Source: Burkholderiaceae bacterium 26
Lineage (GTDB): Bacteria; Pseudomonadota; Gammaproteobacteria; Burkholderiales; Burkholderiaceae
Reading direction: 5' to 3'
Assembly (NCBI GenBank): GCA_000955795.1
Contig: JYOB01000005.1
Span: forward strand, 96,786-160,785
Length of the DNA: 64,000 nt
Part shown: piece after piece, positions 23,016-64,000 of the stretch
Position numbering within the stretch: position 1 is the stretch's first letter
Layout: each line of letters starts with the position of its first letter
The notes under the pieces: generated by a model
Told to the model about the DNA's origin: nothing
The model's input: the letters and a program-made list of their open reading frames with translations, nothing else
Databases searched by the model: none
Translations under genes and position numbers: made by a program

Positions 23016-23091
<76 letters not shown>

Positions 23092-34869: not shown

Positions 34870-35178
34870 TTAGCGGTCCCAGCCGCGGTGCCAGCCGTGA
34901 TCGTGGCGCCATTCGCGTTCGCGCCACTCGTGACGGCGCCATTCACGCTCACGCCAGTCGTCGCGGTCGCGATAGTAGCCGCCATAGACGACCGGGGCAG
35001 GGGCATAGACCGGGGCCGGGCGATACACCACGGGCGGCGGTGCATAGACAGGGGCCGGGGCCACGTACACCGGTGCAGGCACGCCGATCGACACGCCGAC
35101 ATCCACATGCGCCAGCGCCGCCGTCGAGGCGCACAGCGCGGCGCCACCCAGAACGAATGCGAGCAGTGTGCGTTTCAT
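34870..35178 (-). CDS. Exported PXPV-repeat protein
   Basis: A 102-residue protein with a signal peptide (MKRTLLAFVLGGAALCASTAALA), then VDVGVSIGV, a proline repeat section (PAPVYVAPAPVYAPPPVVY) and an Arg/Trp/His-rich tail with repeats such as WREREWRRHEWRERE. Small PXPV-repeat proteins of this kind are common in Burkholderiales; function is unknown. The related lipoprotein at 40688 shares the PAPV/APVY wording. Confidence 0.8.
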   Translation of the reverse strand: MKRTLLAFVLGGAALCASTAALAHVDVGVSIGVPAPVYVAPAPVYAPPPVVYRPAPVYAPAPVVYGGYYRDRDDWREREWRRHEWREREWRHDHGWHRGWDR

Positions 35179-42902: not shown

Positions 42903-43271
42903 TTATTGCTTGGTCGCGTCCTTGACCTTGTCGGCCGCTTCCTTCGTGGCGTCAGCGGTCTTGTCGGCTGCAACCTTGGCGGCGTCGGCCGTCTTGTCGG
43001 CTGCGGTCTTGGCGGCATCCTTGGCCTGGGCCAGCGCGCCCGATGCAGAGACCTGCGCATCCGAAGCGGCTTGCGAGAGTTCCACCTTGGCGGCGTCGGC
43101 GGCCTTGCTCACGGCGGTGCCGGCGTTGTCGATCGCCTGTTTGGCGGCGTCCTTCGATTGCTCCATCGCGCTCTTGGCAGCTTGGTCGGTGGCGTCGTCT
43201 TTCTTGCCGCAGGCGGCCAGGCCGAGTGCGAGGGTGGTAGCGACAGTGATGGCCAGCAGTTGGGTACGCAT
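42903..43271 (-). CDS. Alanine/lysine-rich helical lipoprotein
   Basis: A 122-residue protein with a lipoprotein signal (LLAITVATTLALGLAAC) followed by KKDDATDQ and an almost uninterrupted Ala/Lys/Asp amphipathic helix with an 11-residue-like repeat (AADKTADAAKV, AADKTADATKE, AADKVKDATKQ). Such repeats resemble apolipophorin or LEA-like helices and coiled-coil envelope spacers. ATG 43271 has AGGAGA seven bases upstream. Function unknown. Confidence 0.82.
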   Translation of the reverse strand: MRTQLLAITVATTLALGLAACGKKDDATDQAAKSAMEQSKDAAKQAIDNAGTAVSKAADAAKVELSQAASDAQVSASGALAQAKDAAKTAADKTADAAKVAADKTADATKEAADKVKDATKQ

Positions 43272-61213: not shown

Positions 61214-63430
61214 ATGGATTACGTCCACGATCCACGCACCTTCCTCTACAGCCATTACGTCTCGCGCGGCATCCGTACTGCCACGGGCGTGATCGGCTTG
61301 ACGCTGCTCGCACTGCTGGTGATGGACCTGCAGGGCGCGATGGTGGTGTCGATCGGTGCGCTTTGCACCAGCCTCATGGATTTGCCCAGCCCGCTGCGGC
61401 ACAAGTTCAACGAGATGATGGCGTGCGTGCTGCTGACGACGGCCGTCACGTTTCTCGTGGCCGTGGTGACGCCGTACGCGATCCTGCCGGTGGTGATCGT
61501 CGTGGTGAGCTTCCTGGCGGGGCTCATGGTGGCGTACGGCAACAAGACGATGCCGCTGCAGTTTGCGGCGCTGTTCGTCATGACGCTCACCTTTACCGAA
61601 GAATTCGCTTTCCGCGAAGCCGTGGAACACACGTTGCAGTTCTTCCTCGGCGCGATCGGCTACATGGCCTTTGCGATGGCGGTAGCGTGGGGCCAGCGGC
61701 GACGCATCAAAGAACAGGTGCTGGCCGAATGTCTGTACGAACTGGCCGTGTACGTGGAACGCAAGGCCGGCTTCTACGACGCATCCAAGGATTTCGACGA
61801 GCAGTTCAATGCGCTCGTGCGCCAGCAGATTTCGGTGGCCGACAAGCAGCAGGTGGCGCGCGATTTTGTTTTCCGCGATAACCGCACCTCCAGCGACGGG
61901 CGCCTCGTGCAGGTCCACATGCGGATGCTCGACATCTACGAGTACCTGCTGTCTTCCAACACCGACTATGTCGTGCTGCGTCAATGGCTGGCCGATGCCG
62001 AGGTGTTGCGTCTGCTGCGCGAGCTGATCGAGCGCATGCGCCTGGACATCGAAGGCGTTGCCTATGCCGTCGGCCGTGATCGGCCATCGCCTACGCCGAT
62101 GTCGTACGACAAGGAGATGGCCGCCATCGAGGCAGCGCTGCTCGAACTCCAACGCGACCACCATGGCGTGCCGATCGAAGCCATTGCAGCGCTGGAAGAA
62201 TCGGTGGCCACGGTGCGCGGCGCGATCCGCCTGATGGCGCAATTGCATGCCGCCACCGACACGCAGGTCGAGCCGTCGCAGGTGCTGCTGCGTCCGGACA
62301 TGACGCCCTTCCTCACACGCCAGAAATACGAACTGCGCCTGGTGCTGGAAGAACTGACCTGGCGGTCTCCGGTGCTGCGCTTTGCGTTGCGCATCTCGAT
62401 GGCGGTGGCTGCCGGGTTGTGGATTGCCGACCACCTGCCATATGCGTCGCACGGCTACTGGGTATTGCTGACCATTGTCGTGATCCTCAAACCGACGTTC
62501 AGCATGACGCGCCAGCGCAACTTCGACCGGGTGCTTGGTACGCTCATCGGCTGCGTGATCGCGGCGGTGATTCTGCGCTTCACCCATTCGACCTGGATTC
62601 TGATGGGCGTGCTGTACCTGTCGACAGCGGCCAGCGCGGCGTTCGTCACCGTGCGCTACCGCTACACGGCCATTGCCGCCTGCGTGCAGGTGCTTATCCA
62701 GATCAACCTGCTGCTGCCGGGCAGCAAGGGCGCCATTGGCGAACGGCTGGTCGATACGCTGATCGGGGCGGCCATCGCGACCGCGTTCAGCTATGTGTTG
62801 CCCGCCTGGGAATATCGCAACCTGCCCAAGCTGGTGGATGACGTGCTGCGCACGAACCGGCGCTTTATTGAGGCCGCGCGCGAGCTGCTGCTCGGCACGC
62901 TCAAGGATGATTTCGCCTATCGCGTGCAGCGCAAGCAATTCATGGAATCGCTCACGGGGCTGATCTCGGCCTTCGCGCGGATGCTGGACGAGCCCAAGAG
63001 CCGCCACCGCGCCGTCGACAACCTCAACCGCTTCATCGTCCAGAACTACTTGGTGGCCGCGCATGTAGCGGCGGTGCGCATCCTGATGCGTCAGCGCGCG
63101 CAGGAGCTGGACGAAGCTGACACCCGCGCGTTGGTCGAGCAGACCGCCGAAGCCGCGCTCGAAAGCCTCGCTCGCGCCAAGGAGCGTTTCGATCAAGCCG
63201 TGCATGAAGGCGGTTGGGGCGTGCGTCCGCGCGATACGCAAGAGTTGGGCGCTGCGGATTTCGCCGATAAATCTGCCCGTTCCCGCATGGTCGATGCGGC
63301 AGCAGAATCGGATTCGCTATCGGCGATGCACTTGCTGGAGCGGCGCCTGCAGGCGCTGCGGGCCGATACGGCCAAGATTGCATTGCGCTGTGGTGCGCTC
63401 GGACGCGCGCTGCGTATCTCGAAGGACTAG
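61214..63430 (+). CDS. FUSC-family inner-membrane protein (YccS-like)
   Basis: A 738-residue protein of the fusaric-acid resistance/YccS type. Helices cluster in two blocks (GVIGLTLLALLVMDLQGAMVV onward to about 165, and ISMAVAAGLWIADHLPYASHGYW onward, 395-535). A long cytoplasmic helical region separates them and another makes the C-terminus. Such proteins are proposed aromatic-compound exporters, but YccS itself is uncharacterised. It lacks a neighbouring membrane-fusion protein gene, so an efflux assembly is not evident here. It is 18 nt after the peptidase gene. Confidence 0.88.
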   Translation: MDYVHDPRTFLYSHYVSRGIRTATGVIGLTLLALLVMDLQGAMVVSIGALCTSLMDLPSPLRHKFNEMMACVLLTTAVTFLVAVVTPYAILPVVIVVVSFLAGLMVAYGNKTMPLQFAALFVMTLTFTEEFAFREAVEHTLQFFLGAIGYMAFAMAVAWGQRRRIKEQVLAECLYELAVYVERKAGFYDASKDFDEQFNALVRQQISVADKQQVARDFVFRDNRTSSDGRLVQVHMRMLDIYEYLLSSNTDYVVLRQWLADAEVLRLLRELIERMRLDIEGVAYAVGRDRPSPTPMSYDKEMAAIEAALLELQRDHHGVPIEAIAALEESVATVRGAIRLMAQLHAATDTQVEPSQVLLRPDMTPFLTRQKYELRLVLEELTWRSPVLRFALRISMAVAAGLWIADHLPYASHGYWVLLTIVVILKPTFSMTRQRNFDRVLGTLIGCVIAAVILRFTHSTWILMGVLYLSTAASAAFVTVRYRYTAIAACVQVLIQINLLLPGSKGAIGERLVDTLIGAAIATAFSYVLPAWEYRNLPKLVDDVLRTNRRFIEAARELLLGTLKDDFAYRVQRKQFMESLTGLISAFARMLDEPKSRHRAVDNLNRFIVQNYLVAAHVAAVRILMRQRAQELDEADTRALVEQTAEAALESLARAKERFDQAVHEGGWGVRPRDTQELGAADFADKSARSRMVDAAAESDSLSAMHLLERRLQALRADTAKIALRCGALGRALRISKD

Positions 63431-63490
63431 CGCGGCCGGTGGCTGAAAGGCTTCGTACGGGCGGCGATCTTCCACCGCGACTGCGCTGAG

Positions 63491-63997
63491 CCCCGGACCC
63501 TCGACGACGGGGCTCAGAGAGCCGACGTCCAGCATCCGAGCGTCAAAGGTCAGCCTCAGCGGGCCAGAGTTGAGTCTCGGAGGGCCGACGATGGATCTCG
63601 AAGACTCAAACTCGAGTCGAAAAAAAGTCGAATTTGACCCTCAGAGAGTCGAGGTCGAGCCTCAGACAGTCAAAGGTGACCTTCGGAGCGTCGACGTTGG
63701 GCCTCGGAGGGTCAAAGAGTCGAGTCTCAGAGATTCGAAGCCGACCCTCGGAGAGTCGAAGTTGAGTCTCAGAGAGTCGAAGCCGAGTCTCGGAGAGTCA
63801 AAGTCGAGCCTCGGAGAGTCAAAGTCGAGCCTCGGAGAGTCGAAGCCGAGTCTCGGAGAGTCGAAGCCGGGCCTCGGAGAGTCAAAGTCGAGCCTCAGAG
63901 AGTCGAAGCCGGGCCTCGGAGATTCAACGTTGAGTCCTGGAGCGCCGAACCCGGCTTCCAGACACTCAAAGCCGACGCTCGGGGGCTCGTCGATGGG
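63491..63997. repeat. Array of about 24 tandem 21-bp units
   Basis: Counting by hand, 24 consecutive units fill this stretch: 22 are 21 bp, one is 22 bp (63617-63638) and one is 23 bp (63702-63724). Units 12 to 21 (63725-63934) are nearly identical; the flanking ones are degenerate, as is usual at array edges. The consensus reads CTCGGAGAGTCGAAGCC plus GAGT. The +1 and +2 length changes add to one codon. The array ends just before the window edge and may continue. Confidence 0.95.
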
Positions 63998-64000
63998 GCC
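63591..64000 (+). CDS. Possible heptapeptide-repeat protein, N-terminal part (runs off the window)
   Basis: From ATG 63591, with GGAGG seven bases upstream, the frame stays open for 136 codons to the window end. It starts MDLEDSNSSRKKVEFD, passes through PQRVEVE-like units between the two length changes, then repeats PSLGESK and variants (SSLGESK, PGLGESK). The same frame is open upstream to TGA 63444 without ATG. Codon use (AGT, AGA, GGA, TCA) is unlike the neighbours. The opposite strand is also open from the window edge to a TGA at 63662-63664, giving DFDSPRL-type heptads. The array could equally be non-coding. Confidence 0.35.
   Translation, partial: MDLEDSNSSRKKVEFDPQRVEVEPQTVKGDLRSVDVGPRRVKESSLRDSKPTLGESKLSLRESKPSLGESKSSLGESKSSLGESKPSLGESKPGLGESKSSLRESKPGLGDSTLSPGAPNPASRHSKPTLGGSSMG

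Follow-up and report, generated by a model that had tools for sequence, protein, structure and literature searches.

A 21-bp near-palindromic tandem array between FUSC and ung is very probably a non-coding member of an intergenic repeat family in Ralstonia and a related genus

The stretch of DNA analysed here (the window; 64,000 nucleotides of contig JYOB01000005.1 from Burkholderiaceae bacterium 26, a genome of 5.68 Mb) closes with a 21-bp tandem array that forms the spacer of a convergent gene pair, FUSC and ung. With high confidence, we regard this feature as a non-coding member of a family of arrays; the family is genome-wide and has a near-palindromic unit, which is not visible from a single window. 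A REP/BIME-like 3′-flank element fits best, because the array combines tandem turnover, self-complementarity on both strands, a location in 3′ flanks and a loosely kept unit. This reading is plausible and the one we prefer, albeit held at slightly less than even confidence.

A circular 21-state profile assigned about 24 units to positions 63487-64000, and TRF, with a score of 310, placed 14 copies of period 21 at 63626-63922 and detected a superperiod of 63 bp. Self-matching of the array reached 0.64 at lag 21, as compared to 0.21-0.37 at the reported lags that are not multiples of 21. The original prediction, made from the letters of the window, that some 24 units of 21 bp follow FUSC was confirmed, and the length changes of +1 (63624) and +2 (63716-63718) said to restore the frame jointly were likewise recovered (net +3). 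FUSC, the label that the same prediction gave to the left neighbour, is a 738-codon ORF with a coding log-odds of +0.29 per codon. Past the window edge lies a minus-strand gene which we take, from its sequence, to be ung (uracil-DNA glycosylase); the array ends at L005:4785 (window 63999), 17 bp short of the 3′ end of this gene, whose stop codon occupies window positions 64017-64019. The features of this locus are as follows.

61214..63430, plus strand: FUSC, the left neighbour, with its 3′ end toward the array
63486..63517, plus strand: 9-bp perfect inverted repeat CTGAGCCCC / GGGGCTCAG with a 14-nt loop, on the FUSC side, identified by eye
63487..64000, unstranded: 21-bp tandem array of ~24 near-palindromic units
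63591..63593, plus strand: ATG originally proposed as a start
63624..63624, unstranded: +1 length change in the array
63626..63922, unstranded: stretch where the units are most homogeneous (TRF: 14 copies, 63-bp superperiod)
63716..63718, unstranded: +2 length change in the array

By eye, the inverted repeat is mostly kept in seven aligned orthologs and is weakest in L044. Its 14-nt loop places it outside the reach of our terminator scan, which required a GC stem, a loop of 3-8 and a T run, and which found no intrinsic terminators in the FUSC–ung spacer (0.8 expected in shuffles). Searching Rfam 15 over the window returned a tRNA at 23016-23088 as the sole match above the gathering score, and none was obtained on L005, which carries the whole array. 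Elsewhere in the window, short tandem repeats with periods of 30, 18, 33 and 15 lie at 34905-35061 and 42927-43016, both within predicted genes.

Two readings of the array had been offered originally, a minisatellite that does not code and has its frames held open by the 21-bp period, and the start or end of a fast-evolving heptad repeat protein gene on one strand; our results support the former and not the latter. The open frames themselves exist on both strands, as such a gene would need: the plus-strand frame from ATG 63591, with GGAGG ahead of it, stays open to the window edge, and the minus strand is open for 112 codons (about 110 had been reported). That their codon use is deviant was confirmed, here relative to the genome, with per-codon log-odds of −0.24 (plus) and −0.19 (minus), far from the value of FUSC and from the minimum of +0.16 among 32 predicted genes of the same length class; the coding log-odds of the array was below zero in all six frames. 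Extension past 64000, suggested as a way to find a complete gene, yielded none: the plus-strand frame only continues through ung antisense, to L005:5630, and no listed minus-strand ORF of at least 60 aa reaches through the array. Across seven orthologous spacers (21 pairs, not independent of each other), substitutions were distributed over the three phases as 0.202, 0.220 and 0.197, i.e. with no codon-phase signal; FUSC diverged by 0.01-0.04 at codon positions 1+2 versus 0.15-0.39 at four-fold sites (20 pairs, one very close pair being left out). The ATG is kept in three of the seven orthologs (L005, L020 and L041), its aligned place reading ACG, CCG or TCG in L017, L019, L040 and L044. Gaps between orthologous spacers include 1- and 2-bp changes besides those of 21 and 42 bp, and frame-breaking indels of this kind in close relatives had been named beforehand as speaking against coding. 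None of the translated array frames matched a Pfam family above the cut-off, and the corresponding spacer of R. pickettii SSH4 is only 13 bp long. The position of the array between two convergent genes is a further point against coding.

The strongest point for a repeat protein was a deficit of stops, with 9 in the best frame per strand against 48 by column shuffling (35 arrays, after removal of indels; 0/200 shuffles). The two strands share the codon grid on which the deficit falls (14 versus 38 and 7 versus 48), the other four frames being nearer expectation. Yet it accompanies a depletion of TpA, which stands at 0.29 of expectation in the arrays (other dinucleotides, 0.92-1.15) and is low also at column pairs that produce no stop in the open grid (columns 12-13, 4 versus 10.4; columns 14-15, 1 versus 9.6). 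Ordinary spacers are likewise TpA-poor (0.56). Since TpA is depleted even where no stop results, the deficit no longer counts as evidence for translation; we take TpA avoidance to be its cause, with core columns 2-4 fitting either explanation. At least 110 stop-free codons on both strands were present in 31% of 500 arrays simulated from the unit profile and in 12% of 500 base-shuffled sequences, so that such openness is nothing unusual. Three causes account for the long open frames on both strands, namely the near-palindromic unit, a period divisible by three and the depletion of TpA; the period, originally put forward as the cause, is one of them and not the sole one. On the grounds of codon phase, the poorly conserved ATG, negative scores, the Pfam result and TpA, we reject a gene on either strand: it is very unlikely that the array is coding, and a heptad repeat protein in particular is scarcely credible. 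The locus is an annotation trap, given its long open frames on both strands of non-coding DNA.

The unit is a degenerate, near-palindromic 21 bp of approximately CTCNGAG-NN-YSR-nnnn-YSR-NN (arrays scoring under 60 were left out of the symmetry, covariation, folding and stop counts). Between its profile and the reverse complement of that profile the correlation is r = 0.92, as compared to 0.38 ± 0.08 for null profiles (0/2000 nulls), and the dyad recurs when the source genome (r = 0.93), G011 (0.88) and genus g14 (0.75) are considered separately. These profiles also agree with each other (source–G011, r = 0.91; source–g14, r = 0.84), an agreement favoured by the G011 and g14 arrays having been found with the source-genome model. 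Units are loosely kept, with identities between neighbours of 46-55% in three of five arrays and 67-69% in the other two. Some arrays alternate two unit types; in L056, units match at 0.65-0.75 at even and 0.45-0.48 at odd separations (1-8). Within the L056 array, an 85-bp block (84 + 1 bp) occurs in identical head-to-tail copies (L056:4862-5031), amounting to block-wise expansion.

Dyad centres fall at column 3 and column 13.5, that is 10.5 bp apart, and the profile has a sub-period of 7 (self-correlation at lag 7 of 0.53; null, −0.02 ± 0.12). Both properties would suit a phased protein-binding array, in which 21 bp correspond to two helical turns and the dyad units serve as sites for a symmetric, nucleoid-associated or topology-related DNA-binding protein that coats gene ends. 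However, such a protein is only putative, and the columns are very degenerate (13.8 bits of information per unit); we consider this explanation improbable.

Further arrays were located by similarity, by pattern and by a period-only scan. With a sequence-only model of 63 bp, the source genome returned 125 matches at E ≤ 0.01, both strands counted, corresponding to at least 17 array loci; this grouping is our own and a lower bound, as 150 of 1456 candidates were scored. All 16 genomes of the genus contained matches, from 3 to 102 each. Under stricter filters, 16 of 120 genomes of the bacterial family matched at E ≤ 1e-5: nine belong to genus g1, two, with 15-21 hits, belong to genus g14, and the other five had 1-3 hits. 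Filtering was likewise stricter for the order, where 2 of 200 genomes matched at E ≤ 1e-6, one being the source genome. FUSC proteins up to 99% identical occur in named Ralstonia, R. pickettii SSH4 included, and because these are the close named relatives we equate genus g1 with Ralstonia. Besides Ralstonia, the repeat model matches one further genus of the family; matches elsewhere are rare. Identification of g14 as Cupriavidus was unsupported. In a plasmid collection, the only one compared, the named DNA nearest to one g14 locus came from Burkholderia/Caballeronia and that nearest to another from Cupriavidus necator. A Burkholderia stagnalis stretch matching one g14 locus showed no array, and the plasmid collection searched with the array gave no match.

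The period-only scan covered ~778 kb, part of which had been picked for known arrays, so that array density is not to be scaled up from it. All six intergenic period-21 arrays in this sample belong to the family; the remaining intergenic calls were a weak period-15 call beside one array and three short contigs self-matching throughout, which we took as runs of N. A profile trained on the six arrays recovered the same six and nothing else above a score of 12, with two matches (scores 24 and 13) in the reversed control. Arrays within predicted genes had periods of 15, 18, 21, 23, 24, 26, 27 and 30, mostly multiples of three. That these six intergenic arrays share period 21, the weak period-15 call apart, when in-gene arrays vary from 15 to 30, adds to the case for helically phased protein sites, although common origin alone would yield a common period.

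All 43 array stretches in eight genomes (17 in the source genome, 13 in G011 and 13 in six others) are intergenic, genes having been called by a codon-score predictor that would not call the arrays themselves genes. In the source genome, the arrays occupy 7 convergent, 9 same-direction and 1 divergent spacers (n = 17), versus 44, 220 and 81 among 345 background spacers (60 bp or longer) from the part of this genome that was sampled, i.e. an excess of convergent locations (7/17 versus 12.8%, p = 0.003). Together with ten loci of other genera (6 convergent, 2 same-direction, 2 divergent), 13 of 27 are convergent against the same background (p = 8e-6). The excess is not clear in G011 (3 convergent, 8 same-direction and 1 divergent of 12 counted), where the counted set lacks the convergent FUSC–ung array and a further convergent array was removed for its low score. 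These counts omit arrays scoring below 30 or with one side lacking a gene, which kept 17/17 in the source genome, 12/13 in G011 and 10/13 in other genera. By BLAST of arrays with their flanks, as many as nine of the 17 source-genome arrays have a positional counterpart in G011 (our reading, some on one flank). A Rho-type, C-rich transcript strand was rejected, as the G-rich strand had no orientation bias relative to gene direction in tandem spacers (8/20, orthologous loci counted apart).

RNA folding of 16 own arrays on both strands, run on at most 330 nt per array, gave a mean z of −4.1 relative to dinucleotide shuffles, with 29 of 32 values below −2. Ordinary spacers also fold better than their shuffles (mean z −1.8; 17/40 below −2). 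Sampling arrays from the unit profile gave a mean z of −2.7, as compared to −0.4 for column-permuted profiles (24 each). The FUSC–ung array is predicted to fold into long ladders, built of short helices separated by small internal loops, with pairing between units. Across nine FUSC–ung spacers, z ranged from −1.0 to −6.9. In Ralstonia sp. ASV6 the array is divergent and only weakly recognisable, yet folds at z −5.3 and −6.9, and folding was weakest in R. soli (L015; z −1.0 and −2.2). Pairing columns showed no consistent covariation (z of +5.7 for one pair and between −3.6 and +2.2 for the rest), which speaks against a chain of one-unit RNA hairpins. Absent covariation is expected if partner units are interchangeable and equally if no RNA selection acts, and symmetry of the unit combined with it is a further point in favour of protein binding.

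Motif columns were less divergent than other columns in all 11 ortholog pairs, individually at p < 0.05 in three. At the FUSC–ung locus, pooled divergence was 79/476 versus 119/524 (0.166 versus 0.227, p = 0.017; three separate pairs, using a profile trained on the five remaining arrays), and at seven other loci it was 198/1372 versus 201/1030 (0.144 versus 0.195, p = 0.001); the pair L122.1–L153 (48% identity), outside the pooled figure, points in the same direction. The effect is small to moderate in size, and mutation bias driven by composition may also account for it. Non-motif columns evolve at about the rate of FUSC four-fold sites (0.273 pooled).

In relatives, array differences of 21, 42 and 84 bp recur, besides those of 1-2 bp. 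In R. pickettii SSH4 the FUSC and ung stop codons stand 13 bp apart, without an array and with both neighbours intact; the array is therefore dispensable in that strain. Ralstonia sp. NFACC01 carries an integrase-bearing insertion at the array's place. All this would be expected of a passive minisatellite, generated by slippage and unequal recombination and persisting where it does least harm, downstream of genes, with its symmetry reflecting common ancestry of the units and not present function. The exact block copy in one array, the near four-fold-site rate of non-motif columns and the inconsistent covariation favour the same explanation. It sits less well with the keeping of phase and symmetry in the three arrays of poorly matching neighbours, the uniformly slower motif columns, the recurrence of the profile in a second genus and the arrays matched in G011, and we judge it a serious possibility, though not a probable one.

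Other DNA occupies the FUSC–ung spacer of some relatives: an integrase-bearing element was observed in L012, and spacers of 1.5, 3.6 and 2.7 kb with no recognised array in L014, L016 and L018. The spacer looks like an insertion hot spot. If the arrays are functional, this single gene pair would serve as a natural experiment, since related strains vary in array size, have no array there or show an insertion at that position.

A gene for a REP-type transposase (Y1_Tnp; G000:C40:76998-77288, L178), single in the source genome, lies ~83-84 kb from the FUSC–ung array both there and in G011. It occurs in all 16 genomes of the genus, array-poor ones included, with two matches in one of them, and its 3.3-kb locus in the source genome holds no array. 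Where examined, no array was seen beside this single gene. Mobile small-gene modules were rejected as the carrier of the arrays: 7 of the 17 own loci adjoin one, five sharing one repeated module and two the other, and FUSC–ung has none. The first module measures ~670 bp, is separated from the array by 6-140 bp at five loci (L006, L088, L122 twice and L128) and carries a TATAAT-like box and a GCTGCCG/CGGCAGC hairpin. It also encodes a paralogous family of small proteins (~120-170 aa, ending like ...FVDAIDAYVSMSLGGRDVDPQTWDVLAAIERRGYSQ); the L006 protein, the member run, had no Pfam match, and the L006 copy of the module had no Rfam match at threshold. Chromosomal copies of C4 antisense RNA (Rfam RF01695, 57-72 bits), a phage-type regulator, were seen near 21-bp arrays. 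The second module, of ~250 bp (TTTGTCTTGCCAAAGAAAAGTAAGC...), occurs in direct and inverted copies near several arrays, in pieces ~79-93% identical. Their locations are:

L006:2540-3037, minus strand; also L088, L122 and L128, and the G011 loci L152, L155 and L157: members of the small-protein family
L088:6243-6332, minus strand: C4 antisense RNA (RF01695)
L122:3477-3568, minus strand: C4 antisense RNA (RF01695)
L122:16287-16376, minus strand: C4 antisense RNA (RF01695)
L128:4056-4144, plus strand: C4 antisense RNA (RF01695)
L130:4221-4319, plus strand: C4 antisense RNA (RF01695)
L080:4418-4974, L125:4209-4824, L154, L158 and L161: ~250-bp module

For the REP/BIME-like element that we prefer, a mechanism at the transcript 3′ end, with stabilisation and separation of convergent transcripts, can be proposed by analogy and is tenable, if tentative. 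RNA polymerase leaving either flanking gene would enter the array, and the 3′ transcript of either strand would fold into ladder hairpins. The folded tail might then stabilise the mRNA 3′ end and help to separate convergent transcripts, here those of FUSC and ung, as proposed for REP/BIME. As any unit could pair with any other, units might be gained, lost or diverged without loss of the property; interchangeability in pairing would explain how the sequence changes fast under a fixed period and symmetry. Going further, the arrays might represent an undescribed class of extragenic repeats, in which genus-wide head-to-tail arrays of 21-bp palindromes act as direction-independent 3′-end insulators, the selected property being self-complementarity of either strand across hundreds of bases, independent of the precise sequence, with turnover in steps of two helical turns. 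We think this extended proposal rather unlikely.

Among known systems, CRISPR arrays are intergenic and consist of regularly spaced, partly palindromic repeats. In contrast, the 21-bp array is continuous, with no variable spacers between conserved repeats. The VNTRs and minisatellites used in Ralstonia typing (PMC12366337, PMC4860299) resemble it in being tandem repeats, some of them intergenic, that vary in copy number. However, PMC4860299 kept minisatellites of 7-18 bp and required over 80% identity within an array, and the portions of both reports considered here treat loci singly and describe no dispersed family with a palindromic unit.

REP/BIME elements come closest. Like the arrays, they are short, palindromic, extragenic and multi-copy; their palindromic unit measures 20-40 bp, as compared to our degenerate 21-bp unit with its strong dyad. 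REPs lie mainly between convergent and same-direction ORFs (PMC3733652), and the source-genome arrays likewise prefer these over divergent spacers (7/9/1; excess unclear in G011). REPs are also insertion-sequence targets (PMC1525189), to which the integrase-bearing element in Ralstonia sp. NFACC01 is a parallel. Roles proposed for REP/BIME include mRNA stabilisation, termination and supercoiling (PMC3733652, PMC1525189). The REP terminal tag GTAG (PMC3733652) is nearly absent from the arrays, with 4 GTAG/CTAC in 13,455 array bases, and the tag CGTC is at about composition expectation by our estimate (143 CGTC/GACG in the same bases); lacking such a tag, the arrays are not claimed as REPs. They differ further in their head-to-tail 21-bp period, without spacers and with hairpins between units, and in number, with 17 array loci found here versus many dispersed REP units. 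Among the papers listed by our literature searches, some framed on REP/BIME and C4 RNA, none was recognised as an account of this repeat family; what is new here would be a REP/BIME-like element in a new format. If functional, the arrays would be a direction-independent 3′-end element of Ralstonia and a related genus, a tandem counterpart of the enterobacterial REP/BIME elements with their dispersed units.
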